Assembly: GCA_002731655.1 (NCBI GenBank)
Contig: PCCI01000033.1
Coordinates: forward strand, 1-41,590
Length of the DNA stretch: 41,590 nucleotides
From: Methanobacteriota archaeon
GTDB taxonomy: Archaea > Thermoplasmatota > Poseidoniia > MGIII > CG-Epi1
Direction: 5' to 3'
The stretch's first letter is position 1. Every line of letters starts with the position of its first letter. A program made the position numbers and the translations under genes. This document shows positions 69 to 31,875 of this stretch, piece after piece. The notes below the pieces were generated by a model. That model made no database searches and was not told where the DNA came from. It was given only the letters and a program-made list of their open reading frames with translations.

Positions 69-148
69 CTCACCTATGGTGGCGTGCAGGTCAGCGCTCC
101 AGTCATTCATCACTGTTCAGCAGACCTATTGCCATCATTCCTGCATAA
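69..148 (-). other. tRNA-Trp intron with bulge-helix-bulge splice sites
   Basis: The intron runs from 148 to 69. A bulge-helix-bulge fold can be drawn. The outer helix is the anticodon stem. The four-base core pairs CTCC (154-151) with GGTG (74-71), with one U-U mismatch. The three-base bulges are AG^T at the 5' site and AG^A at the 3' site. The inner helix is TAT/ATA (147-145 with 77-75). Both predicted cuts fall between bulge bases 2 and 3, as expected for the archaeal tRNA endonuclease. A candidate endonuclease gene lies at 25844-26500. Confidence 0.88.
86..144 (-). ncRNA. Box C/D guide RNA embedded in the tRNA-Trp intron
   Basis: Inside the intron, stem GCAGG (144-140) pairs with CCTGC (90-86) and encloses box C ATGATGG (138-132), box D' CTGA (120-117), box C' GTGATGA (113-107) and box D CTGA (94-91). 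The guides are 11 bases (131-121) and 12 bases (106-95). Applying the rule that the fifth base before box D/D' marks the target, the D guide selects C34 through 11 contiguous pairs (one G-U) across the exon 1-intron junction. The D' guide selects C39 with 5-6 pairs. The same arrangement is established for haloarchaeal pre-tRNA-Trp, where the intron guides 2'-O-methylation of positions 34 and 39. Box C deviates from RTGATGA at its last base. No expression data are available. Confidence 0.87.
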
Positions 149-19352: not shown

Positions 19353-20393
19353 CTATGCACTGCCGTGCGCCACGGCGATGGCGGCGTCGGTCTGCGCGAC
19401 GCTCGCACGCCAGTCCGCTTCACTGCCGGTTAGCGCGCGGATGGCGTCGACGTTCTCCGGGACGACATCACTCTCCTGATGGATGGCCTGGAAGTAGTAG
19501 AGTGTGTCGCCGACCAGCTTAATTCCGTCTTCCCAGACGAAGATTTCGTGCAAATCACCCCAGTGCCGACCGATATCGCGCGCCATCTCCATCACTTCGG
19601 CCGTCGTCGTAATCCGGCTGTCGCCGCCGTGCATCACTATGACGCGCGGCTGCGCGCGGAATAGCTCGACGACCGCGTCGGTCGTCAGCCCATGGCCTGA
19701 CGGGAGCGTGGCAACGATGGCATGAACGTGCATTATGGTGGTGGGTACGGCGACAGCCAGAGAGTTAATGCTGATTTCAGGGCAGACAGTCATCAGGTCG
19801 GGGCCGTGATGGCTCGGCACTTTCAGGACGGGTTTGATAGCGTTTATTGGGCCTTTACCTGAATCGCCGGGGTCAGCCGCGCGGCGAATCATAGTGCACT
19901 CGACCGCGAGCGAGCCGCACGCTTCCCAGAGCGGCACCAACGTCCGCGAAAGCCCGGTGGTATTGCACGAGACCACGCGCGTCGCGTCGGCGCCCAGATT
20001 GGCGTCGTGATTGGCACTCGAACTGTAGGAAAGGCCGGTAAGCGCGTGCGGCTCGCCACCCTGTAAAACAGCCTTCACGCCCGCCTTACGGTATTTCGCG
20101 AGGTTCTCCGCAGCCATCTTGCCGGGCGAGCAGTCGACGACGACATCCACCGTCGCGAGCAGCTCCGACAGGCCACCAGCGCATTCGTAGCCGCCTTCGC
20201 TGAAGGCGGCTACGCGGTCGGCGTCGTCCGAAGTGCAGTAAAGTGGGAAGCCGCGGCGCACCGCCAACTCGCAGCCAAAGCTGGGGCCGGTCTTGGTGAC
20301 TCCCACAATTTCCATGTCAACTTGCGCTGCAACCGCGTCGGCGACGCGCTTGCCGATGGTACCGAAACCGTTGATGGCGACCCGTGTGGCCAT
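19353..20393 (-). CDS. gap: Archaeal glyceraldehyde-3-phosphate dehydrogenase (phosphorylating)
   Basis: Archaeal (class II) GAPDH of 346 aa, interconverting glyceraldehyde 3-phosphate and 1,3-bisphosphoglycerate, probably mainly in gluconeogenesis. The N-terminal Rossmann motif is VAINGFGTIGKRVADAV. The archaeal feature VVDCSPGKMAAEN precedes the catalytic segment VSCNTTGLSR, with the nucleophilic Cys at residue 143. PSHHGPD and GHWGDL-like segments of the catalytic domain also match archaeal forms rather than bacterial GapA. A TTTAAA-type element at 20411-20419 lies about 23 bases upstream, directly beside the stop of the McrC-like gene. The cupin-like gene follows one base later. Confidence 0.96.
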   Translation of the reverse strand: MATRVAINGFGTIGKRVADAVAAQVDMEIVGVTKTGPSFGCELAVRRGFPLYCTSDDADRVAAFSEGGYECAGGLSELLATVDVVVDCSPGKMAAENLAKYRKAGVKAVLQGGEPHALTGLSYSSSANHDANLGADATRVVSCNTTGLSRTLVPLWEACGSLAVECTMIRRAADPGDSGKGPINAIKPVLKVPSHHGPDLMTVCPEISINSLAVAVPTTIMHVHAIVATLPSGHGLTTDAVVELFRAQPRVIVMHGGDSRITTTAEVMEMARDIGRHWGDLHEIFVWEDGIKLVGDTLYYFQAIHQESDVVPENVDAIRALTGSEADWRASVAQTDAAIAVAHGSA

Positions 20394-20420: not shown

Positions 20421-22484
20421 TCAGTCGTCGGTTTCTTTCTGCTCGACAATTTTCTTCAGGTCCTGTATAGAAATCGTGCGTGATTTCGGTTTTGGGGAAG
20501 AGTCCTCGTCATCGGGAGCAGCGGATTCTGACTCCGCTTCCGGCTCGGGCTCCGCCTCTCCGGCTTTCGCGTCGACCTCCAAGTCGCCATCTCCGCGCGA
20601 GCCGACCGCGTAATCGCCCTCGCCTGCCGTGCCGGAAGCCACGCTCGCATCCCCAGCCAGCACGCCTTCGAGTTCCGCATGGCGTTCCTCCGCCTCCTCT
20701 CCGGCAGACTCCTCGATCTCTTCCTCGGGCGACAGATCCTCCGCTTCAGCATCCTGCTTTTCAGCAACCATCTCCGACGGAATAGCGGGCGGCTCAACGG
20801 GCTCGTCCGGCAGTGGCACCAGTGGTTCGGCCGGCTCGGGCGGAACAGCACCTGGCATCGCAATCGCCTCGTAATATTCCCACGCCTGCTTCTCAGCGCC
20901 CAGCGCGACCGCGGTGGCATCGCCGTCGTCAAGCGCCTGCCAGATGGCGGCGAGCCGGTCGACAATGAAAGCGAAATAGCGAGGCGCCGCGTCATACGCC
21001 TGCTCGGTCCAGGTGAATGGAATCCACGCCAGCACCTGCCGATTGCGGGGGTCGCAACTGAAGCGTAGTTGTGATCCGGGATAGATGATGCCGCCGCACG
21101 GGATACGGTAGTTGTTCATGAACGCCAGTACCTTGTAGATATCCTGCTGGCGCGGCTGCTGGTGCAGGCCATACTGGCACTCGAAATATATGTTGACGCC
21201 ACGGTAGTTCAGGAAAATCTCCGGCTGCCCGGAGCCGACCGCGGGCGCTGCTGGTTCGTCGCCCGGGAAGAGCATACCCATAATGGAATCGCCCCACCCC
21301 TCGCGCACCGCGCCGGGGGCGTCGTAGCGCAGGATACTCTCCTTGCGGGGCGAGCGGAACTCGCGCAAGCTCTTAGAGTGGGCGCGCAGGCTAAGGCCGC
21401 TGGCCATCTCGCACACAATCCAGAGCGCATATACGTCGGCCATACGCTGCGTCTCTACTAGCACTGTCTCTTCGTAGTAGGAGCGGTAGTCGCGCAGGAA
21501 TTCCTGCCAGAGCGGAGGCAAGTCACGGTAGGCGCGGTTCTTGAGGCGCCGGATTTCCTGCTCCGCTTCACGATTGATTTCGCGCGCCTCCTTGCGGATG
21601 TGCCGCGCCACGCCAAGCAATTCCTTGAGCTTACCGCCCAGCAGTATCTGCTTGTGGAGCAGGCAGACCGCATCCAGCTTCTCTAGCTGTTCCCGGACTT
21701 CGTCCGACGCCGCACCGGCTTCCTGACCGTAGATGGCAGCCCACGCCCTACGCTCGCGCTCACGCCGGTCCATCTCATCGCGGAAAAAGACTGCCTCAGT
21801 GAAGAGCTCGATGTGAAATTTTGCGAGCAGCAAGTTCGACGGCGTGTGCCATTTCCGCTTGCGGATGTCAGTGACGTGGACGGTGGCGTATTCGACCCCT
21901 TTCTGCGCACGCACCAGCGCGGTCTTCTCCCAGCGCACCGCGCCACGAATCGTCGATTTCATGTACTTGCGCTGCTTCTCGATAAGATAAGAGAAGGCGC
22001 CCTTCTGGACGCGTCTCGTCAGCTTCAGCAGCCGCTCCGAGAAATTGAGGAGCTGGGAGATATTGAGCAGGATTTTCTCCTCCGCGATAGAAGCGGTCGC
22101 GCCAGGGTAGGCGGCACCGCTCTGGTCATCGGCTCCCGCTGCCTGCACCAGAGCCGGAATGTGCTGCTCGCGCAACGCCTGGAAATGCTCATAGTCGAGC
22201 ATTTCAGGGGCAATCACTACTTCGAGCCGATTCGAGACGCAGCCGTCGGACTCGTGCAACTCAAGCCGATTGGCGCCAATGTAGTCAGGCACCCGGAACC
22301 GCAACGAATGGGTCTGGTTGCTCGCCAGCACCGGCAATTTCTCGAGCGTGATATTCCCCATCCGGAGGCTGGGCGCCTCGAGCGGCTTCAGCGCATGCAC
22401 CAGCAGCGTCAGCGTCTCGCCCTCGAGCAGGTGCTCGCGCCCTTTGGGCAGCTGCAGTTCGAGGGTCGCGCGCGGCATCGCCAT
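20421..22484 (-). CDS. McrC/DUF2357-like protein with variant nuclease motif
   Basis: 687-aa putative partner of the McrB-like motor encoded immediately upstream. Residues about 1-95 form a beta-rich domain (LELQLPKGREHLLEGETLTL). Residues 100-345 are helical and include TIRGAVRWEKTALVRAQ and KRKWHTPSNLLLAKF, matching the DUF2357/McrC pattern. A PD-(D/E)xK-like core follows: PEIFL (421-425), YFECQY (433-438) and DIYKVLAFM (448-456). The usual D-A-K is E-C-Q here, so the catalytic lysine is replaced. From about residue 520 a long acidic Glu/Pro/Ala tail is probably disordered, ending in a short helix. The ATG overlaps the upstream stop by one base (TAATG). The family call rests on pattern and neighbour; cleavage activity is uncertain. 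Confidence 0.7.
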   Translation of the reverse strand: MAMPRATLELQLPKGREHLLEGETLTLLVHALKPLEAPSLRMGNITLEKLPVLASNQTHSLRFRVPDYIGANRLELHESDGCVSNRLEVVIAPEMLDYEHFQALREQHIPALVQAAGADDQSGAAYPGATASIAEEKILLNISQLLNFSERLLKLTRRVQKGAFSYLIEKQRKYMKSTIRGAVRWEKTALVRAQKGVEYATVHVTDIRKRKWHTPSNLLLAKFHIELFTEAVFFRDEMDRRERERRAWAAIYGQEAGAASDEVREQLEKLDAVCLLHKQILLGGKLKELLGVARHIRKEAREINREAEQEIRRLKNRAYRDLPPLWQEFLRDYRSYYEETVLVETQRMADVYALWIVCEMASGLSLRAHSKSLREFRSPRKESILRYDAPGAVREGWGDSIMGMLFPGDEPAAPAVGSGQPEIFLNYRGVNIYFECQYGLHQQPRQQDIYKVLAFMNNYRIPCGGIIYPGSQLRFSCDPRNRQVLAWIPFTWTEQAYDAAPRYFAFIVDRLAAIWQALDDGDATAVALGAEKQAWEYYEAIAMPGAVPPEPAEPLVPLPDEPVEPPAIPSEMVAEKQDAEAEDLSPEEEIEESAGEEAEERHAELEGVLAGDASVASGTAGEGDYAVGSRGDGDLEVDAKAGEAEPEPEAESESAAPDDEDSSPKPKSRTISIQDLKKIVEQKETDD

Positions 22485-25111
22485 TAGCCGAAGATACTCA
22501 TGCCCGGTGAATCGACCATCTTCTCGAGCGTACGAGTGATTTCAGCTTCGGCGCCCAGCACCTGCTCTGACTTCAGCAGTAGGCAGCGCAGTTCGTTGCG
22601 CTCAAGTCCTTCGAGCGACGGCATGATGTTGGCGCGAATCACGTCCTGCAGCGCCTTTTCGAGGTCGTACTGTCCGCGTGAGTTGAAGAGCGTCAGCATC
22701 GAGTCAATCACCATCGCCGGCCCGATGCGACGGAAAGTGCGTACGCCGCGCGGCACCTCCTCGTCGCGCTGTTGCGGAGGCTCCTCTTCCTCGAGGAAAT
22801 CCATGAGCAGGTTATAGGCGCCGAACATCGAACCATCCTTGTCGTAGAAATCGAATTTCTCCGCCGCGAACCAGTCCTCTTCCTCATCCGGTCGGTCGGG
22901 GGCAATGCCAAGCTTCTCCAACTTGTTGAAGACGAATTCCGGCATGCGCCGGAATTCGTCTTCCTTCACCGGCAGCCCGATTTCGACGAACGCGAAACGG
23001 CGCATCAGCGCGTGACCGACATTGAAGAGCGTATTCTTGTCCTGCGTGTTCATGGTGCCAATGATGCGGAATTCGGGCGGCATCATGAACGGCGCTCCAC
23101 CAGTCTCCTTGGCAGTCAACAGCGGTTGCTTATCGCGGTACTCGAAGACGGTAAAGAGTTTGCCGAACGCTTCATCGATATTGGCGCGGTTGAACTCGTC
23201 AATCACGAGGTAGTGTGGCTTGCCAGTATCCTGTATCGACTTCTCACAGGCGCGTGCCGCTTCGGAGATGTAGCCGTCCTTGAAATAGTAACCACCCTTA
23301 TCGTCGGGCGAGATGCCGCCGATAACCTCGAAGTTGGACCACTCGGCGTTGGCGGTGACGATGGTGTAGTTGGGGTCGTCACCATCCACCCCGCAGAGCT
23401 GCATCAGCAGGAGGTTAGCCAGCGCGGTCTTGCCGGTCCCGGGTTCACCGTAAAGCATGATGTTGCGACCTGATTTCAGATGGGTGATGACTTGGTTGAC
23501 CGTCTCGGGCGTCGTCGAGTAAAAGCGTGAAAGTTCCTCAAAATCAACGTCGTAGGGAACCCTGCGGGCCTTGCGCACTTCCGCCTTGAGGTCGACGTCG
23601 TCAAGCATTTCTTCGACTTCGTCCCAGTCCATAATGAATCCGCCCGAGTCTTCAGCCGTCGGCTTGATGTCAATCGTCGCGTCGGGGAACTCCTGCAGCA
23701 GCCGGTCCATCGCGGCGTCGAGCGATATCTCAGTCTGTGTCGGGTCCTCCGGCGGCACGTAGGTAGAGTCGAATGGATCCTGCCGGGGGGCCTCGAGTGG
23801 AGCCAACTCAGCCATTCTGTCACGCAGTTTGTGTGCACCAAAGCGGATGCCATACCAGAGGCCGGTCACGGCCAGTAGCAGCGGAACCACCAGCAGCACC
23901 CATTCCGAAGTCGTGGTGGGAGCTGCAAAGTCCTTCTCCGAGAGCAGGACCGGGATGACGCTGAAGCCGAAGAGGGTTCCGACCCCGGCCACGAAAATAC
24001 CGAAGTAGGCGAGCTCCTCCATTGACTCCTCCAGCTTGCGCTTGCGATAGAAGAGCCAGACGCCGAGGAAGGTGATGAAGCCCGCCATCGCGGTCAGGAC
24101 TATGTCGACCTGCTCCATCTTGATATTGGACTGGTTGCGGAGCGCGTTGAAGAGCAGGACCAGGTATTGCAGCAGCAGCCCCGCCATAATCATTGCAAAA
24201 TACTTGGCCTCTTCAAGGTCCTTCAGCCTCACGCTGGTGACAATGAACGAACCAATGCCGATGAGTAGCGTCGCCAGACCAAGCAGTATTAGCACCATTT
24301 CGGGCGGCTGCAGGTCGATCAGGTACATCCGGACCGAACCGTCAGAGGCCACTGCAGCCCATGGCCCCCGCACGTAGTTGTAATGGACTGCACCGAGGAC
24401 GGCGGTGCCGGCGATGAGGAACATGTAGGTGCTGGTCGCGAGCCGTTCGCCAACATCATGGCCAGTCACAGCAAACAGGAAGAAGGAATAGGTGAGCACC
24501 ACCATCGCCAGCACCGCAACAAAGCCGGCGGTCGAAGAGACTGGCGAGAGATGCATCTCGTTGCGGCCCTGGATGAGGTAGATTGCGATAATTAGTACCA
24601 GGCAGAAATAGAATGGAGCCATCGCCGAGGGTGAAGCACTGCGCCACGAATGCACCAGCGTCATCAGCGCCAGCAGGAGCGTGAGCCCGAGGACAATCTG
24701 GTACTGGCTCCCATAAATCGATGCGTCGCCACCCGAGCTTAACCGGACCGGGCAGCCATCCAGGTTGCCGGGGTCTGACCAACCGGGCGGGCATTCGAGT
24801 GGCTCACTGATACCGGTGTAACCTTCGAGGTCGGGCGTATCTGGCGTAGGGATATTGCCGGTGGTCACGAACAGGATGTAGCCCAGCAGCGCCACCGCTA
24901 GCAGGAACTGGAACGCCGGCAGGTAGAAACTTGGCTGCCGCCCTCTGGACGATGTCGCGGGTGGGATATCAGTTGCCTCGGCCGCCTCCCGAGTTGTTTT
25001 CGTCGCCGGTGGCGGTTCCTCTTGTGACCGGGACTCGAAATTTGTCCCGCAAATTTTACAGTAGTCCTCAGTCTCGTCGGCGGGCGAAGAACAGACCGGG
25101 CACTTGAGCAT
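22484..25111 (-). CDS. Membrane-anchored McrB-like AAA+ NTPase with zinc ribbon
   Basis: 875-aa fusion. An N-terminal zinc ribbon (C4, C7, C18, C21) leads through a flexible linker to about ten hydrophobic helices (roughly 63-83, 137-154, 166-181, 195-216, 227-245, 270-294, 303-325, 335-355, 367-390, 403-422). The soluble C-terminal half is an AAA+ module: Walker A GEPGTGKT (555-562), Walker B VIDEFNRANI (from 636), McrB-type signature GTMNTQD (685-691) and arginines RR at 704-705. The NRAN-x4-FG segment and MNTxD place it with McrB GTPases rather than ordinary MoxR proteins. It likely works with the co-transcribed McrC-like protein at the membrane. The biological role is unknown; defence is an inference. 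Confidence 0.82.
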   Translation of the reverse strand: MLKCPVCSSPADETEDYCKICGTNFESRSQEEPPPATKTTREAAEATDIPPATSSRGRQPSFYLPAFQFLLAVALLGYILFVTTGNIPTPDTPDLEGYTGISEPLECPPGWSDPGNLDGCPVRLSSGGDASIYGSQYQIVLGLTLLLALMTLVHSWRSASPSAMAPFYFCLVLIIAIYLIQGRNEMHLSPVSSTAGFVAVLAMVVLTYSFFLFAVTGHDVGERLATSTYMFLIAGTAVLGAVHYNYVRGPWAAVASDGSVRMYLIDLQPPEMVLILLGLATLLIGIGSFIVTSVRLKDLEEAKYFAMIMAGLLLQYLVLLFNALRNQSNIKMEQVDIVLTAMAGFITFLGVWLFYRKRKLEESMEELAYFGIFVAGVGTLFGFSVIPVLLSEKDFAAPTTTSEWVLLVVPLLLAVTGLWYGIRFGAHKLRDRMAELAPLEAPRQDPFDSTYVPPEDPTQTEISLDAAMDRLLQEFPDATIDIKPTAEDSGGFIMDWDEVEEMLDDVDLKAEVRKARRVPYDVDFEELSRFYSTTPETVNQVITHLKSGRNIMLYGEPGTGKTALANLLLMQLCGVDGDDPNYTIVTANAEWSNFEVIGGISPDDKGGYYFKDGYISEAARACEKSIQDTGKPHYLVIDEFNRANIDEAFGKLFTVFEYRDKQPLLTAKETGGAPFMMPPEFRIIGTMNTQDKNTLFNVGHALMRRFAFVEIGLPVKEDEFRRMPEFVFNKLEKLGIAPDRPDEEEDWFAAEKFDFYDKDGSMFGAYNLLMDFLEEEEPPQQRDEEVPRGVRTFRRIGPAMVIDSMLTLFNSRGQYDLEKALQDVIRANIMPSLEGLERNELRCLLLKSEQVLGAEAEITRTLEKMVDSPGMSIFG

Positions 25112-25184
25112 GGTACTCCATTATAGGGCAGGTTAAACAATATTGCAGGGGAGTTTTTCTTTAGCCCCAGCAGTTACGCCTCCC

Positions 25185-25826
25185 ATGGATCCAGATGAAC
25201 TCACCCTGCGGGACCTCCGAGTACAGGTGCTGGCGGAACGCCGCGACGGGCGGCTGGTGAAGTTGCCAGCCCATTTTCACGAGCGGCTGGCGCGGCTCGA
25301 GCAGGGACTGGAGCAGGCGCGCGATGCGGCACGCGAGGACGAGCAGCGGTTCCAGCGCGCCAATAGCGATATCAGCAAACTTTCCGACCTAAAGCTGGAA
25401 CTGCACAAGCACCGCGAGCGCAAACTGACACTGCTGGCGCGCGAGAAGGTCAACGGCCAGCAGCCGTCGCTGGAAGCGGTCACCGAGCAGGAACGAGAGT
25501 TCCTTGAGAGCGTCGCTAGCGTCATTGGGCAGCACCGGCAGAAATTACTGGTGCGACGGGCGGCGCCCGTCGCGAAACCCGAGCCGAAGGCGAAGCCGGG
25601 ACCGAAATCCGCTGTGCCAGGGCCGGAACCAGACGCCACTGCTCCTGCCGATATCGACGACTCTGAATCGCTGCTGGTGCGCGTCCTCGAGGATTTACCG
25701 ACATTTACAGGACTTGACGCGCGCAACTACTCGCTCAAGGCCAACGACGTGGCGCACATTCCGCTCTACAACGCGCGCATGCTGCTCGAAGCGGGCAAGG
25801 TGGAACGGCTGGAGGAAGAAGCCTGA
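25185..25826 (+). CDS. Archaeal GINS-family replication protein (Gins51-like)
   Basis: 213-aa GINS subunit, part of the replicative CMG-type helicase with MCM and Cdc45/GAN. The N-terminal A domain is helical and charged (LTLRDLRVQVLAERRDGRLVK, then a long coiled region to residue 120). A Pro/Ala/Lys linker (about 128-160) leads to the small B domain, with VRVLEDLPTFTGLDARNYSL and DVAHIPLYNARMLLEAGKVERL, the characteristic archaeal C-terminal B domain. The A-then-B order indicates Gins51 rather than Gins23. I chose ATG 25185 over 25143. The upstream T-rich stretch near 25154-25162 could be a weak promoter. The tRNA endonuclease follows 18 bases later. Confidence 0.88.
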   Translation: MDPDELTLRDLRVQVLAERRDGRLVKLPAHFHERLARLEQGLEQARDAAREDEQRFQRANSDISKLSDLKLELHKHRERKLTLLAREKVNGQQPSLEAVTEQEREFLESVASVIGQHRQKLLVRRAAPVAKPEPKAKPGPKSAVPGPEPDATAPADIDDSESLLVRVLEDLPTFTGLDARNYSLKANDVAHIPLYNARMLLEAGKVERLEEEA

Positions 25827-25833
25827 AACTGCG

Positions 25834-25838
25834 GGAGG
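25834..25838 (+). promoter_or_regulatory. Shine-Dalgarno site deciding the endA GTG start
   Basis: GGAGG lies five bases before the GTG at 25844, matching the archaeal 16S tail. It supports this non-ATG start, for which no in-frame ATG is available nearby. Confidence 0.6.
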
Positions 25839-25843
25839 GCGAG

Positions 25844-26500
25844 GTGCTGCTGCCGGCCGGCAAACTCGCGACGGCGCTACGGGGGCGGCAGCGCGTTGGC
25901 CGCACTGCCACCGACGGCATTGCGCTGCATCCGGTCGAAGCGCTCTGGTGCCACGCCAGCGGGGCGCTCGAGCTCGACGCGAAACTACAGGTACAGCTGG
26001 CTGCGCTAGCGGGCGAACTGCTGCCGGTTGCCTACACCGACTTGCGGCAGCGCGGTATCGTGCCGACCGTCAAAGGCGCTGCGCTGTGCTTTCAGGCGCG
26101 CGACGGCGGCGCGGACGTGCGGCTGCATGTCGCCAGCAGCGACGCGTCAGCCAGTCTGGCGTTGCTGGCGCAGGGCGACTGGCTGGCGCTGGTCGATGAC
26201 GCGCTAGAAATAATCTACTACGCAGCCACGGCTCCCGGCTGGGGCGCGCTTCCGGCGGGTTCGCTGCCGGAAGTGCTGGCGGCGGCAGGGTTGCAGGTCG
26301 CTTCAGGAATGAAGTTCGGCACCCGCTACCGAGTCTACCGCGACGGCGAATCCCACGCAGCTTGGCTGCTGCACCTGCTGCGCAACGACGACAGTTGGCT
26401 CGACATCGTGCGTGCGGTGCGGGTAGCACACGGCGTCCGCAAGCAACTGGTCGCCAGTGACGGCGAACGGTGTCTGGCGCTGGAATGGGTGAAACCCTGA
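25844..26500 (+). CDS. endA: tRNA-splicing endonuclease
   Basis: 218-aa enzyme that cuts bulge-helix-bulge motifs in precursor tRNAs and rRNAs. The C-terminal catalytic domain is clear: GMKFGTRYRVYRDGESHAAW, with the likely catalytic Tyr165 and His171, and AVRVAHGVRKQLVAS, with Lys200. A second, weaker copy lies earlier (ALHPVEALWCHASGAL, then YTDLRQRGIVPTVKG) without the catalytic residues. It therefore looks like a shortened version of the fused pseudo-catalytic plus catalytic form. The start is GTG at 25844 with GGAGG five bases upstream. The next gene's ATG lies inside its end, a 16-base overlap. The tRNA-Trp intron at 69-148 is a natural substrate candidate. Confidence 0.87.
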   Translation: MLLPAGKLATALRGRQRVGRTATDGIALHPVEALWCHASGALELDAKLQVQLAALAGELLPVAYTDLRQRGIVPTVKGAALCFQARDGGADVRLHVASSDASASLALLAQGDWLALVDDALEIIYYAATAPGWGALPAGSLPEVLAAAGLQVASGMKFGTRYRVYRDGESHAAWLLHLLRNDDSWLDIVRAVRVAHGVRKQLVASDGERCLALEWVKP

Positions 26501-27183
26501 AAGTCGGCCTAGACCTGCACAACTTCGGGTTATTGCATCGCGTGGTCGCGGCACTGGAAAGCGACGAATTCAGGCTGCTGCCGCTAGACGCAGTTCCCGC
26601 CACATCGACCGAAGTCGAAGTTGTCGTCAGCGACGCCGCACAACTACCGGCAACCCGCTTGCCGATCATCGCGCTCGGCGACGTCGCGCTGTTGCCGTTG
26701 CAGCTGCGGCACGTCCGCGCCGGACGGCCGCCGCTGGTCATCGGCATTGACCCGGGCGGCACCACCGGCGTCGCGGTGCTGGCGCAGCGACGCCTGCTCC
26801 ACTGTGCCGAATGCGCTACGCCCGACGAAGCGGCGGAGCTAGTGCGCCGGGTGGCACGCTGCTCGCTCGACTGCACAGTGCGCATCGGCAGCGGCGCCCC
26901 CGAGGCAGGCGCGCGTATCGCTGCTGCGCTGCAGCACCTGCGGGTCGAGCTGGTCGACGAAACGCGCAGCGGCAGCGGCTCGCACACCGTTGCGGCGCGG
27001 GCTATCGCACTCAAGCGCGGTGAACGAGTGCGCGAGCTGGACTACCGCCCCACCACCGGTGAAGTGGCGCGGCTGCAGGCGGAGTCGCGGATTGCGTCGG
27101 GTAGCCGCCGCACCATCTCACGGCAGCAGGCTCGACGGGTGCTGCTAGCCGAACTGACGCTGGATGAAGCGCTGCGCGGCTAG
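26485..27183 (+). CDS. Predicted RNase H-fold (RuvC/YqgF-like) protein
   Basis: 232-aa protein of uncertain function. Residues 84-99 read LVIGIDPGGTTGVAVL, the first strand and Asp89 of a RuvC/YqgF-type RNase H fold. VELVDETRSGSGS (154-166) and HTVAARAIAL (167-176) resemble the later active-site strands, although the last acidic residue expected in a resolvase is not obvious. The first 80 residues are an unrecognised alpha/beta domain and the C-terminus is Arg-rich and basic, suggesting nucleic acid binding. ATG 26485 is preferred; a GTG at 26470 is possible. Co-transcription with GINS and EndA suggests an information-processing role. The stop overlaps the convergent ABC gene. Confidence 0.72.
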   Translation: MGETLKVGLDLHNFGLLHRVVAALESDEFRLLPLDAVPATSTEVEVVVSDAAQLPATRLPIIALGDVALLPLQLRHVRAGRPPLVIGIDPGGTTGVAVLAQRRLLHCAECATPDEAAELVRRVARCSLDCTVRIGSGAPEAGARIAAALQHLRVELVDETRSGSGSHTVAARAIALKRGERVRELDYRPTTGEVARLQAESRIASGSRRTISRQQARRVLLAELTLDEALRG

Positions 27184-28121
27184 CCGCGCAGCGCTCCGCA
27201 ATTGCCGCACTGCGTTTCGTCGCCCTCGAACGGGGTATTGCACGCCTCGCACACGTTACTGCGCTCATCCGCGACGCGCGACAGCGTCAACCGATGGCGG
27301 CGCAAGTCGCGCACTTCGTAGCGGCCCGGGCCGCCCAGTTCCTCCAGCAGGTCAGGCGTCAGCGCCAAGTTGCCACCCGCATCGAGCAGGAGTTCGCGCG
27401 TCAGCGCCAGATCCTCGAGCTCAACATCTTCGCCGTGCTGCGCGATGAAGCGGCCATCCTGCAGCTCGAGCGAACGGTCGGCAAAGTCGGCGACCATCTC
27501 GCTGTGCGTCACGACCAGAAACGCCACTTCCTGCTCCTTGTGCAAACGCGTGAAAAGCTCCATGATGCTGCGCGCGGTGACCGGGTCCACTGAGCCGGTG
27601 GGTTCGTCGGCCAGGATGAGCCGCGGGCGGGTGATGAGCGCGCGCGCAATCGCAGTGCGCTGCGCCTCACCACCTGAGAGCTGCTCGGGGAGCGCGTGCG
27701 CCCGCTCGGAGATGCCAAGGTAGTCCATCATCTCGGCGACACGAGCAGCCGCCTCGCGATGCGGAATCCCGGCGTGGCGCAGCGGCTGTAGCACGTTGTC
27801 GCGTGCCGACAGGTGCGGCAGCAGGTTGCCCTCCTGGAAGATGAACGAGACCGTCGCCCGCCGGTGCTGCACCAGCTGCTCGGGCGCCATGCGGGTAATG
27901 TCCTCGCCCGCCAGCTGCACCACGCCGGCGCTGGGCTTCAACAGCCCGCCCAGCGCTTTCAGGAGCGTAGACTTGCCGGCGCCCGAAGGGCCGACGACGG
28001 CGACCGCTTCGCCATCCCGCAAGGCAACGCTCAGCCCGCGCAGCGCGACAACGTTGCCTTCCTCCGCCTGCGATTCAAAGACGTGGTAAAGTCCGGTTGC
28101 CTTGAGTAATTCTTCTGCCAT
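27180..28121 (-). CDS. ABC transporter ATPase with C-terminal zinc ribbon
   Basis: 313-aa MacB/LolD-type ATPase. Walker A is GPSGAGKST (44-52), the Q-loop is FIFQEGNLLPHL, the signature is LSGGEAQR (148-155), Walker B is LILADEPTG (168-176), and the switch His lies in VVTHSEM. Unlike common MacB-type subunits of about 230 aa, it has an 80-residue extension ending in a four-cysteine zinc ribbon (C291, C294, C305, C308). The ATG follows the permease stop directly with no gap. With the ATPase at 31145 it forms a three-gene exporter, giving two non-identical ATPase subunits. The transported molecule is unknown; MacB/LolCDE relatives move lipoproteins, peptides or other envelope substrates. Confidence 0.92.
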   Translation of the reverse strand: MAEELLKATGLYHVFESQAEEGNVVALRGLSVALRDGEAVAVVGPSGAGKSTLLKALGGLLKPSAGVVQLAGEDITRMAPEQLVQHRRATVSFIFQEGNLLPHLSARDNVLQPLRHAGIPHREAAARVAEMMDYLGISERAHALPEQLSGGEAQRTAIARALITRPRLILADEPTGSVDPVTARSIMELFTRLHKEQEVAFLVVTHSEMVADFADRSLELQDGRFIAQHGEDVELEDLALTRELLLDAGGNLALTPDLLEELGGPGRYEVRDLRRHRLTLSRVADERSNVCEACNTPFEGDETQCGNCGALRG

Positions 28122-31100
28122 CTATTCCCCCTTCAGTATGCGCGCCAGGTCGGAGCGAGTCGCACGGGCTGTGGTCCAGACCAGCGCCAGCATTACGACC
28201 GCGAGCACCGCCAGGCCGATTACGAGCAGCTCGCCCCAAGGCCAGATCAGCGTGCGGTCAACCGTGGTTGAAGCGCCGCCGAATGACTGGAAAATCAGCC
28301 CGAACAGACTGAACATGCCATTAAACGCATACGAGATACCGACCCCCAGCAGCGTGCCGAGAAGCATGCTCACTACCGTTATCGACATGATTTCGAACAG
28401 CACCAACCGCCCCACCTGCCACTCGCTGGCGCCGATAGCCTGCAGGATGGCAAGCTCTCGCTTGCGCTGCGTCAGCACCAGCGACAGGAAGACGAAGCTG
28501 GAAGCGACCGCAGCAATCGTCGCGACCGCGAACTGGAGCGTTAGTAATCCCAGCGTCCCGAAGACCAGCCCGCCGTTGCGCTCGACTTCGCGATGCTCCT
28601 CATGCCAACTGGTGACCTTCGAGACCGACGAGTCAAAAGCCAGCGCGCGGGCCACCGCGCTCTGCGCTTCTGCATCGCCTTGCGGGCCGAGCTCGACGAA
28701 CCATGTCGTTTCGCGCCACGCGTCAACCGCCCCGTCGCCAACCAGCGTGCGGAAGCTCGTCTCGCCGATGAAGATGCCGCCTGTGGTAATGTCAGCGTCA
28801 AGTCCGGGATGCCAGGTGTGCTCACCGACGTTGCTGAGCGTCACCTGGCCGGGAGTGCCGCCGGTCAGGTTCAGCATCAGTTGCGGCTGTTTGCCGAGCG
28901 AGAATTCCAGCTGCTCGCCGTAGCTGAAGCCTCCGACGGCGAGCCGGTCAAGCGTTTTCCCAGGGTCGCCCCCGAAAGCCTGCCGGTCCCACCGCACGAC
29001 CTCCCGGCTTCCATCCAGCAGCACCCACGTCTGGTAAACCGAATATTCATCGCCGGCCGGATGCATGGCAATGAGCGGGACCGAAACCAGTTGGATATCA
29101 TCCGCTGCGATATCGGTCCCCTCCAGTGCGACGCTGACTGTCGCCAGCACCGTGGCGTGGTCAAGCGGTTGCTGGAACTCCACTTTCAGGTCACCACCAG
29201 CCGCGAGCGACGCGGTGCGTTCGTCGACCGCCATTCCCGTATAGCCTTGCACGGCAGCCATCGTGACGATGGAGAGCGTTAGCAACATAATCAGCGCCAG
29301 CTTCCCGACGCCCTCGGCCGAGCCGGAACCGCGCAGCCCGCGGCCAATGTCGCGCAGCGCGGCCGTCCTTCCGAGCAGCCGCTGCATCATCCCCGGTGCC
29401 ATTGCACCGAGCCGCGCCAGTACCAGCGCGCCGCCAATCCAGAGCAGGAAGGGCCCCAGCACCGCGAAAATACCGTTCAGCACCGGGTTGCTGATGATGC
29501 CTTTTTCCCAGTCATCTGCGAGCCGGCCGTCATTGACTAGGCTCTCGATGTATGAATCAGACAGCGCGATGAGTCCAACCCCGAACAGCAGCCAGTGGAG
29601 CCAGTAGCGCGGCTGCGGCTTGACGACGACGCGCTGGACGCCTTCGGAAATCTCCTGCTCCAGAAAGTCGCGCGTGCGGCTGCGTCCGAAGAGCAGCGCC
29701 AGACCTACGGTCACAACTAGCGTCGCCAGCGTCGCGAGCAATCCAAGCGACGGCGAAACATTGTATTCGCCGGGGCGGAACTGCATGAAGCCGACAGCAT
29801 TCAGGATTAACGGCACCGCCAGCAGTGCCAGCAGGTAGCCCGCCAGCCAGGCGCAGAATGCCACAATACCCAGCTCGCCCAGCACCATCCGCAGCAGCGC
29901 GTCGGGACCGCCGCCGATGACGCGGTGAATCGCGATTTCGCGTCGGCGCTGCTCGAGCGATAGCAGCAAACCGTAGAGCAGCACTGAAACCGAGAGCACG
30001 ATAATCGGAATCATAACGATATAGTTGAAAATCTGGATGAAATAATTCTGAATCCTGAGCCAGCTGAGCAGGTCCTTAATGACATGCGTGCCGTCCAGAT
30101 TAGTCTCGCCCTCCAGCGCGACTGAATCAAGGCTGCGCTGGATGCGGTCCAGTTCCTTCTCGGCACTGTCAGTCGACTCAGTCGGCAGCGCAGTGCGGTC
30201 AATCGTCAGCGCTAGGTAGGCGTGGTCACCTGCAATGATTGCCGAGCGGTTCTCGACTGGCACCAACTCCCAGGGGATAAAGACCGGCTGCTGCGAGGTA
30301 ATGGGCGAGGTCACGATGGTATCATCGAAGATGGAGCTGATGGTAAGGTTCTCGAGAGTGACGCTGACGCGGCAGTAGCTGAACTGTTGCCAGAATACTT
30401 CCTCACCCTGGCACCCCTTGCTGGCGTCGGTGTCGTAGGTAAAGGTTAGCGACGCCAACTGGTCTCCGACGGTTGCATCAGCCATCGAGGCCACTTGTGA
30501 GGGAAGCGAGACACTGCGCTGTTCGACAGCGGCTGCTCCCCCGTCTGGCCACTCACCACGCAGCAACCGCGATGCATGCCGCTCTGCCAGCTCGCCATCG
30601 TAGGCACTGGGCCCGAGCAACCGCAGCGGTCGATACCCCCTGGTTGGTGGGCCCTCTTCGTTTCCCTCAAACAAAAAAACTGAGACGTTGGACCAGTCTG
30701 AATCACGGCCCTCCCAAGCCTGCAACTCCAGAGGCTGCGGCTTCAGGTATGCTTCGGTGAACCAGCCTGCACCGTGGCCTCCCTGCCTGCCTGCCGCCAC
30801 TGCACAGTCAGTGATTTCCGGCAACGCCTCATATTCTGCGCAATAAGACTCCAAGAGCGCAACGTCAACAGTGCGCCCTTTCCCGCCGATATCGGTGTGG
30901 AAATCCATCCGGAAATCGTAGTATTCGTCGTCGAGATAATTCAGGAAGAAAATCTGCATCAACCCCGAGCCGTAGACCAGCACGGTCGTAATCACCAGGC
31001 TCGCAAGGAATACTCCCGCAAAGACCGCCAGCCCGCGCGAGCGGCCGCGCCATGCCGAGAGCAGCGCCAGTCGCGTGCGGTCCGGGAACTCTTGCGCGGC

Positions 31101-31148
31101 AGCCTGCATCCGCGATGGTGCTCGCGCCAGCTTCTCGCGCAGCTTCAC
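28122..31148 (-). CDS. Large ABC exporter permease with duplicated FtsX/MacB domains
   Basis: 1008-aa membrane protein. One N-terminal helix (GLAVFAGVFLASLVITTVLV) is followed by about 300 extracellular residues. The first FtsX-like helix set contains SLEQRRREIAIHRVIGGG, and more helices lie around residues 600-760. A second extracellular region precedes a second FtsX set with LTQRKRELAILQAIGAS, whose short coupling helix is the ATPase contact. The protein thus carries two halves of a MacB/LolCE-like transporter in one chain, needing no second permease. The start is GTG 31148, overlapping the upstream ATPase stop as GTGA. The reading frame further upstream lies over that ATPase. Extracellular domains are not recognisable. 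Confidence 0.88.
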   Translation of the reverse strand: MKLREKLARAPSRMQAAAQEFPDRTRLALLSAWRGRSRGLAVFAGVFLASLVITTVLVYGSGLMQIFFLNYLDDEYYDFRMDFHTDIGGKGRTVDVALLESYCAEYEALPEITDCAVAAGRQGGHGAGWFTEAYLKPQPLELQAWEGRDSDWSNVSVFLFEGNEEGPPTRGYRPLRLLGPSAYDGELAERHASRLLRGEWPDGGAAAVEQRSVSLPSQVASMADATVGDQLASLTFTYDTDASKGCQGEEVFWQQFSYCRVSVTLENLTISSIFDDTIVTSPITSQQPVFIPWELVPVENRSAIIAGDHAYLALTIDRTALPTESTDSAEKELDRIQRSLDSVALEGETNLDGTHVIKDLLSWLRIQNYFIQIFNYIVMIPIIVLSVSVLLYGLLLSLEQRRREIAIHRVIGGGPDALLRMVLGELGIVAFCAWLAGYLLALLAVPLILNAVGFMQFRPGEYNVSPSLGLLATLATLVVTVGLALLFGRSRTRDFLEQEISEGVQRVVVKPQPRYWLHWLLFGVGLIALSDSYIESLVNDGRLADDWEKGIISNPVLNGIFAVLGPFLLWIGGALVLARLGAMAPGMMQRLLGRTAALRDIGRGLRGSGSAEGVGKLALIMLLTLSIVTMAAVQGYTGMAVDERTASLAAGGDLKVEFQQPLDHATVLATVSVALEGTDIAADDIQLVSVPLIAMHPAGDEYSVYQTWVLLDGSREVVRWDRQAFGGDPGKTLDRLAVGGFSYGEQLEFSLGKQPQLMLNLTGGTPGQVTLSNVGEHTWHPGLDADITTGGIFIGETSFRTLVGDGAVDAWRETTWFVELGPQGDAEAQSAVARALAFDSSVSKVTSWHEEHREVERNGGLVFGTLGLLTLQFAVATIAAVASSFVFLSLVLTQRKRELAILQAIGASEWQVGRLVLFEIMSITVVSMLLGTLLGVGISYAFNGMFSLFGLIFQSFGGASTTVDRTLIWPWGELLVIGLAVLAVVMLALVWTTARATRSDLARILKGE

Positions 31149-31855
31149 ACTGCTTCCCCCCACGCGCTCTCGACGTCCGACGCTGCGACGCGGCCGTCGC
31201 GCAGCAGCAGCATGCGATCGGCGCGCGCCGCCAGCGCAGCATCGTGCGTTACCATCAGGATTGAGAGTTCGCTGTCGCCTGCGCATAATTCGTGGAACAG
31301 CTCCAATATTTCGCGCGACGTCGCGACGTCTAGGTTGCCGGTCGGCTCGTCGGCGAGCAGCAGCTTGCGGTCGCCGGCAATTGCGCGCGCAATCGCGACG
31401 CGCTGCGCCTGCCCCCCCGAAAGCTCGTCGGGACGATGTTGCGCCCGGTCGGCAAGGCCAACGCGCTCTAGCGCTGCCGCCGCATGCTGCTCCGCATCGG
31501 GCGGAGCAGCGCCCGCCAGCTCAAGTGCCAGCGTGACGTTGTCGAGCGCCGACAGGTGCGGTAGCAGGTGGAAATCCTGGAAAATCCAGCCGATGGTCGC
31601 TCGGCGCAGCTCGACCAGCGCATGCGGCGGCGGCTGGCCATAGGCGCAGCCATTAGCGTCGATGGTGCCGGAATCGGCCGCGAGCAGCCCGCCGATGATG
31701 TTGAGCAGCGTCGACTTCCCACACCCGGAAGGTCCCATCAGTGCGACCAGTTCGCCCGGTGCAACCTCGAAATCGACACCGGTCAGCACCTCGAGCCGCG
31801 TCCCGCCCGCGCCGAAGCCGTGGTGCAGGTCCTTCACCGAGAGCAGCGTCTCCAT
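31145..31855 (-). CDS. ABC transporter ATPase (MacB/LolD type)
   Basis: 236-aa ATPase of the same exporter. It has Walker A GPSGCGKST, Q-loop WIFQDFHLLPHL, signature LSGGQAQR, Walker B LLLADEPTG and switch MVTHDAAL, all intact. It lacks the zinc-ribbon extension of its partner ATPase. I chose ATG 31855 (METLLSVKDLHHGFG), with a TATA-like AGATATAGC at 31876-31884 about 25 bases upstream, instead of a GTG at 31873. It is the first gene of the operon, followed by the permease with a GTGA overlap. Confidence 0.94.
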   Translation of the reverse strand: METLLSVKDLHHGFGAGGTRLEVLTGVDFEVAPGELVALMGPSGCGKSTLLNIIGGLLAADSGTIDANGCAYGQPPPHALVELRRATIGWIFQDFHLLPHLSALDNVTLALELAGAAPPDAEQHAAAALERVGLADRAQHRPDELSGGQAQRVAIARAIAGDRKLLLADEPTGNLDVATSREILELFHELCAGDSELSILMVTHDAALAARADRMLLLRDGRVAASDVESAWGEAV

Positions 31856-31875
31856 TGCGGGCGATTCCTGCACGA

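Follow-up and report, generated by a model that had tools for sequence, protein, structure and literature searches.

A membrane-fused McrBC relative at a fixed locus of MGIII archaea suggests a defence engine turned into cellular machinery

McrBC, which restricts DNA in bacteria, is familiar as a mobile system. The stretch of DNA analyzed here (the window; 41,590 nucleotides) is contig C34 of an 81% complete genome of 1.0 Mb from Marine Group III (MGIII), an uncultured lineage of marine archaea, and it carries a pair of genes in which the motor of such a system is fused to a membrane domain and accompanied by its partner. Does this pair serve defence, as a first-pass annotation of the sequence proposed when it suggested a membrane-anchored, McrBC-like motor acting, for example, on incoming DNA, on the envelope or as an abortive-infection sensor, or does it do a job of the cell's own?

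The two-gene operon that was claimed at 20421–25111 is present as described: the upstream gene (A) and the downstream gene (B) meet at ...ggcTAATGgcg, where the stop of A and the start of B overlap by one base. The frames, their synteny and their motifs are found again in independent genomes and are thus not a product of chance; conservation in 18 genomes rules out both chance open reading frames and an assembly artefact. Our search of open-licence papers found none on the A/B pair in MGIII. Elsewhere in the window, positions 89–142 (minus strand) hold a C/D-box RNA that matches Rfam sR3 (E 9e-8).

The membrane domain and motor of gene A

Gene A and its parts, with the evidence for each, are as follows:

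22484..25111, minus strand: gene A, zinc ribbon, ten transmembrane helices and McrB-type AAA+ module, 875 aa (open reading frame)
25049..25102, minus strand: N-terminal zinc ribbon, C4-C7-C18-C21, cytoplasmic by inferred topology (cysteine conservation, weak Pfam)
23804..24925, minus strand: ten-helix membrane domain, residues 63–436, predicted N-in/C-in (hydropathy, AlphaFold2 helices, loop charge)
24707..24856, minus strand: acidic outside loop, residues 86–135, with invariant C107 and C120 (loop charge, alignment)
22892..23554, minus strand: McrB-type AAA+ module, residues 520–740 (tree, fold match to McrB 6hz4)
23426..23449, minus strand: Walker A, GEPGTGKT (alignment)
23186..23203, minus strand: Walker B and McrB-specific IDEFNR, equivalent to D279, E280, N282 and R283 of E. 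coli McrB (EcMcrB) (invariant)
23036..23053, minus strand: McrB consensus loop MNTQDK, of the NxxD type (invariant)

The CPVC...CxxC zinc ribbon occupies residues 4–21, and all four of its cysteines are invariant across 23 homologues; the Zn_ribbon Pfam matches, seen in A orthologues, are weak. Hydropathy gives ten membrane segments, and the AlphaFold2 model, which is of moderate quality (mean pLDDT 59.5), places ten matching helices between residues 63 and 436. The even number of helices and the charges of the loops suggest that both ends of the domain lie in the cytoplasm, and C107 and C120 could possibly form a disulfide in the first outside loop. Between the two genera the domain is 40–44% identical. 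Pfam returned no match to it in the window protein and weak, scattered matches in the orthologues, and across 380 genomes of the phylum we found no homologue outside MGIII, apart from short segments that are mostly zinc ribbon.

The first-pass annotation had described a zinc ribbon, about ten helices and McrB features in A, and had proposed that the ribbon and helices stand in the place of the DNA reader. The cysteine alignment, hydropathy, model and motifs bear out the description, and the arrangement is absent from the 29 other McrB-type proteins that we examined, none of which has more than one hydrophobic segment or this membrane domain.

The motifs GEPGTGKT, IDEFNRANI, GTMNTQD and MRRF are all present in A, with their key residues invariant across the 23 homologues; in the other MGIII genus, Walker A reads GDPGTGKT. 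By alignment, A keeps the residues that correspond to D279, E280, N282, R283, N333 and D336, which are catalytic in EcMcrB. The roles of the EcMcrB Walker B, asparagine and arginine residues have been reported, as has its reading of guanine via main-chain contacts (PMC6624300), and the function of the consensus loop is likewise described (PMC7680126). The MNTQDK loop of A carries a lysine where arginine is usual, a feature shared by several close relatives.

Family models and structures agree on where the module belongs. Pfam assigns AAA_5 (1e-20), and the best NCBIfam match is the McrB equivalog (5e-18) at 65 bits, so far under the curated cut-off of 637 that A is to be called a homologue, not an orthologue, of EcMcrB. 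The best PDB sequence matches are to E. coli McrB (7e-19). Foldseek, run on the model, ranks McrB 6hz4 first at an E value of 6e-3; because its E values for A exceed 0.001 and the model is moderate, we count this match as support only. In a maximum-likelihood tree of AAA modules (253 columns), the MGIII modules are sister to a Haloarcula plasmid McrB-like protein (UFB 100) and group with two Deinococcus proteins (78), and the McrB radiation excludes both E. coli RavA and the MoxR encoded in the window's genome. YehL, a long-branched MoxR, is misplaced in this tree with low support, so its deep nodes are not to be over-read. The sequence comparisons support the annotation's view that the module is McrB-type, lying inside the McrB radiation; a MoxR/RavA identity is ruled out by the tree and the motifs.

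A motor fused to a membrane domain, with NorQ among the fold matches that follow McrB, would also suit a membrane-protein activase of the NorQ/CbbQ/MoxR kind, in which A and B together remodel a membrane protein or load its cofactor and the nuclease fold of McrC serves as an inactive scaffold. We consider this unlikely, given that the module is McrB and not MoxR, that the genome has a MoxR of its own, and that neither a VWA-type partner nor a membrane-enzyme operon adjoins the pair.

The partner protein B and its nuclease site

Gene B lies directly downstream of A, and the pair is maintained in MGIII A1 loci. Its parts are:

20421..22484, minus strand: gene B, remote McrC homologue, 687 aa, TAATG-coupled to A (open reading frame, junction, hhalign)
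22200..22484, minus strand: N-terminal beta-sandwich, residues 1–95 (AlphaFold2 strands, pLDDT about 75–86)
21270..22097, minus strand: DUF2357/McrC-like helical core, residues 130–405 (hhalign to McrC-like plasmid partners)
20940..21242, minus strand: PD-(D/E)xK-fold nuclease-like domain, residues 415–515 (hhalign to DUF2357 and McrC profiles)
21174..21221, minus strand: altered catalytic site, E422 ... E435-x-Q437 (alignment)
20424..20852, minus strand: acidic C-terminal tail, residues 545–687, poorly conserved (alignment)

B goes unnamed by the models of Pfam, NCBIfam and PADLOC, a PDB profile search with B gave no match, and neither direct BLASTP against the Haloarcula partner nor hhalign against single sequences was significant; the homology is detectable only with multi-sequence profiles. 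With hhalign, the B profile matches the unannotated partners of plasmid McrBs at 97.2% (E 3.2e-11, 273 columns), and a second McrC-like partner profile matches B at 95.7% (E 8.9e-9, 294 columns). Family profiles are matched as well, DUF2357 at 2e-4 over the nuclease motif and its flanking helices and McrC at 9e-4 over the nuclease motif. The hhalign scores of B are 93 and 74; column shuffles (60 each) never exceeded 28 and reversed profiles gave 14–15. Since these controls score far lower, we conclude that B is a remote McrC, and the profile comparisons confirm it, at the level of homology, as the McrC-type partner of A.

The McrC/DUF2357 relationship that had been suggested for the partner is therefore seen by profile–profile comparison where Pfam, NCBIfam and PADLOC are silent, with three corrections: the first nuclease acid is a glutamate, the lysine is a glutamine in the window protein, and a beta-sandwich lies N-terminal to the McrC core. 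The AlphaFold2 model of B as a whole is poor (pLDDT 47, from a shallow alignment), and the C-terminal tail is about 50% identical within a genus. A McrC-like class missed by current family libraries means that surveys of McrBC may undercount this branch.

The nuclease site departs from that of the relatives at its first position, which is PE in all 15 MGIII sequences versus P/TD in 23 of 23 relatives. The triad as a whole is E-E-K in most MGIII and E-E-Q in the window clade, whereas the relatives have P/TD ... D/E-x-K; B thus lacks the catalytic PD-(D/E)xK triad of the McrC family. The lysine-to-glutamine change at 437 occurs in three genomes of one clade (the window genome and two close relatives), a recurrence that rules out a sequencing error. 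PE and E-x-Q are not proof of inactivity: BglII works with E-x-Q, and TnsA with glutamate. From the alignment, loss of nuclease activity in B is plausible, and the invariant E422, E435, D448 and Y450 around the site suggest that it still does something. An altered nuclease motif would also agree with the activase proposed above.

A pair fixed in the MGIII lineage

The neighbours of the pair are housekeeping genes:

19353..20393, minus strand: GAPDH, immediately downstream in most of the MGIII loci that reach far enough (context)
25143..27183, plus strand: GINS51, tRNA-splicing endonuclease and DUF460-like genes, divergent, conserved neighbours (context)

Nearly all loci that are long enough place the pair between these two groups. 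Also conserved near it, at 27180–31873 of the window, is an FtsX-type permease of 1054 aa with ABC ATPase genes on either side. The MGIII loci that we examined have neither a modification partner nor defence genes next to the pair, and of nine nearby proteins run through PADLOC the one with any defence match is a subtilase some 8 kb away, which hits protease models. Two IMG/VR scans contained no viral copy or relative of A or B, and a viral origin was rejected.

The A family is present in 20 of the 21 family genomes and B in 18, and both figures include all three genomes that are at least 90% complete; the third genus is represented by a sole genome (G007, 79% complete), which is without both. 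In a phylum sample of 390 genomes, B is confined to the MGIII family. Canonical McrC is patchy in the phylum sample (8/243), and G037, from another family of the same class, carries an ordinary soluble McrBC pair (L020:805-3387 and L085:1126-2544).

Between the two genera, identity is 82–84% for the AAA module, 66–67% for the B core and 65–72% for the B nuclease domain, and lower for the neighbours: 47–49% for GAPDH, 45–46% for GINS51 and 26–28% for the tRNA endonuclease EndA. Within-genus dN/dS is 0.07–0.14 for A, 0.06–0.12 for B and 0.07–0.12 for GAPDH, values to be read with synonymous sites near saturation in two of the three comparisons. The pair is fixed in the MGIII lineage under housekeeping-level constraint. 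One genome, G002, also holds a short, broken B-like piece with a stop (L078:1504-1632; G002:C5:51241-51387), which is 82% identical to the other genus versus 61% to its own and is possibly a remnant of between-genus exchange.

These observations bear on the reading of the pair as defence. The first-pass annotation had itself named universal vertical inheritance in the lineage as a ground against its proposal, and this is largely what we find, with B present in 18 of the 21 family genomes and in no other of the 390; a survey of the neighbourhood, which it had suggested as a way to tell a defence island from a housekeeping site, returns GINS51, the tRNA-splicing endonuclease and GAPDH beside the pair at almost every MGIII locus. 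The patchy, mobile distribution and defence neighbourhood expected of a type IV restriction system are both missing. A fixed locus, lineage-wide presence, constraint and the lack of an adjoining PADLOC system make defence less likely, so that of the "membrane-anchored McrBC" the anatomy stands and the defensive role is unproven and now disfavored.

The nearest soluble AAA relatives, from a sample of plasmid sequences outside the phylum, lie on plasmids of Haloarcula, Deinococcus, Priestia, Natrialbaceae and others at 33–45% identity, and many adjoin methyltransferases, restriction endonucleases or recombinases. This setting suggests that the MGIII pair descended from a mobile restriction system. 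It also lends weight to the main rival reading, a constitutive, membrane-sited type IV restriction system whose ring, placed at the point of DNA entry, would cut or block viral or plasmid DNA and whose fixation would reflect constant virus pressure. A membrane site suits DNA entry, B still has the fold of a nuclease with most of the invariant residues, and the close plasmid relatives keep company with other defence-type genes as well. We nevertheless find this reading doubtful, because the single fixed locus lacks a modification partner and adjoining defence genes, the constraint resembles that of housekeeping genes and not the turnover usual for restriction genes, and PD has become PE throughout MGIII, with the further change of lysine to glutamine in the window clade.

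A second membrane McrB-like gene, A2, has the architecture of A and no adjoining B (L058:7293-10358, L063:7305-10778, L103:4413-6194 and others). It sits in a conserved housekeeping neighbourhood of its own (Elp3, M24 peptidase and M3 peptidase), and one genome of the window's genus has it too, again with Elp3 and M24 neighbours; since it is shared across genera with matching neighbours, the duplication probably predates them. G002, which is 97% complete and whose B has the lysine-to-glutamine change, yielded no A2. A separate gene of 789 aa (L061:4816-7185), divergent from A2, encodes a hydrophobic N-terminus and a match to a GreA/GreB C-terminal domain.

A motor that occurs in a housekeeping neighbourhood without its own B is a further point for an activase. 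The retention of this paralogue in a small genome, like the fixation of the core gene, tells against an abortive-infection or envelope-damage sensor, in which the membrane domain would sense infection and B would kill or arrest the cell. The outside loop with its two invariant cysteines and the zinc ribbon could sense, and membrane-linked defence has general precedent; B has no killing domain besides the altered nuclease, and we judge such a sensor very improbable.

The reading that we prefer, to which we give a probability of about one half, is that the pair descends from McrBC, has been domesticated and tethered to the membrane, and plays a core cellular role on nucleic acid or nucleoprotein. 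A McrBC system would have been captured by an MGIII ancestor and become a core machine tethered to the membrane. By analogy with McrBC structures, A would form a hexamer on the cytoplasmic face, each subunit held in the membrane at its N-terminus, and the McrC core or finger of B would insert into the pore of the ring and trigger hydrolysis through the MNxxD loop, as McrC proteins stimulate McrB with an inserted arginine or lysine. The beta-sandwich and PD-(D/E)xK-fold domain of B would then be presented to the substrate, and with a membrane domain in place of the DNA reader, the membrane may be where engagement is decided. The AAA module and nuclease fold are kept and the PD aspartate is lost, so the selected job is most likely to bind or remodel nucleic acid or nucleoprotein at the membrane with the energy of NTP, with the nuclease weakened or changed; an NTP-driven activity at the membrane, and not restriction, is most likely the selected product.

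We put forward more tentatively the fuller claim that this is an obligate, non-defensive MGIII machine and the first McrBC-type motor to be embedded in the membrane through ten helices, its nuclease given over to binding or altered catalysis and A2 duplicated before the two main genera split. Against a core role stand the plasmid location of most soluble relatives, many of them defence-like, which makes defence the ancestral guess; the fact that a defence system, too, can be fixed and slow-evolving; and the sole genome of the third genus, which has neither gene.

In MGIII, then, a McrBC relative is a core gene pair whose sensor has been swapped for a polytopic membrane domain and whose motor is constrained like central metabolism. 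Its near-universal, fixed locus suggests that a defence engine has been taken into the machinery of the cell itself. If confirmed, the pair would clearly exemplify the recruitment of a restriction motor to cell biology, and the action of a McrBC-type motor at the membrane would become testable.

Comparison with known systems

With MoxR, RavA and NorQ the pair shares an AAA_5-type module and, in the case of NorQ, a coupling to membrane proteins. It differs from them in the placement of A within McrB by the tree, in its IDEFNRA and MNxxD motifs, and in having a McrC partner and no VWA partner.

The annotation's statement that no system of this exact layout is known needs one qualification, the CoCoPALM fusion of a membrane helix to McrB (PMC11090510). 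CoCoPALM, described in that one paper, is the sole reported McrB with a membrane segment that we found, in which an FtsB-like membrane/coiled-coil helix is fused to an NxD-type McrB (PMC11090510). By its description it differs from A in its FtsB-like helix and coiled coils, its NxD clade and its linkage to signal-peptidase-like genes, and it is without a ten-helix domain or zinc ribbon. The DUF2357 (PF09823) McrC-type proteins that accompany NxD GTPases (PMC11090510) share with B the pattern GYR ... YEYW ... PD..AKY ... D-Y-K-M ... YPG, and some CoCoNuT McrCs have an N-terminal beta-sandwich like that of B (PMC11090510). In contrast to the CoCoNuTs, which are nearly absent in archaea (PMC11090510), A is of the NxxD type (MNTQD), not NxD, and carries membrane helices instead of a coiled coil before its AAA module; the pair is also without the HEPN, coiled-coil McrB and RNA-binding domains of CoCoNuT-related systems.

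The plasmid McrB-like/McrC-like pairs (L112–L119, L127) include the nearest AAA relatives found, and their partners are homologous to B. They differ in being soluble, in having another N-terminal domain or none, and in their intact PD motif. McrC-like proteins encoded beside McrB-like genes on plasmids form a family annotated as hypothetical (L112:3245-4834, L113:7149-8522, L116:5953-7299, L117:5964-7229, L118:5954-7348, L119:5567-6883, L123:5421-6686, L127:5453-6820); the five that were run against Pfam gave no match.

EcoKMcrBC and the McrBC of Thermococcus gammatolerans share with the MGIII pair a two-gene operon with overlapping genes, a AAA+ module with Walker B, asparagine, arginine and MNxxD elements, and a McrC with a PD-(D/E)xK-fold domain. 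The MGIII pair differs from both in having a zinc ribbon and ten transmembrane helices and no N-terminal DNA-reading domain, in reading MNxxDK rather than MNxxDR and PE..ExK/Q rather than PD..DxK, and in being a fixed core locus, not a mobile defence gene. The pair has no DNA-reading domain, no catalytic triad and no mobile distribution, and for these reasons we do not file it as a type IV restriction system. It would work most like McrBC, and by homology its proteins belong to the McrB and McrC superfamilies.
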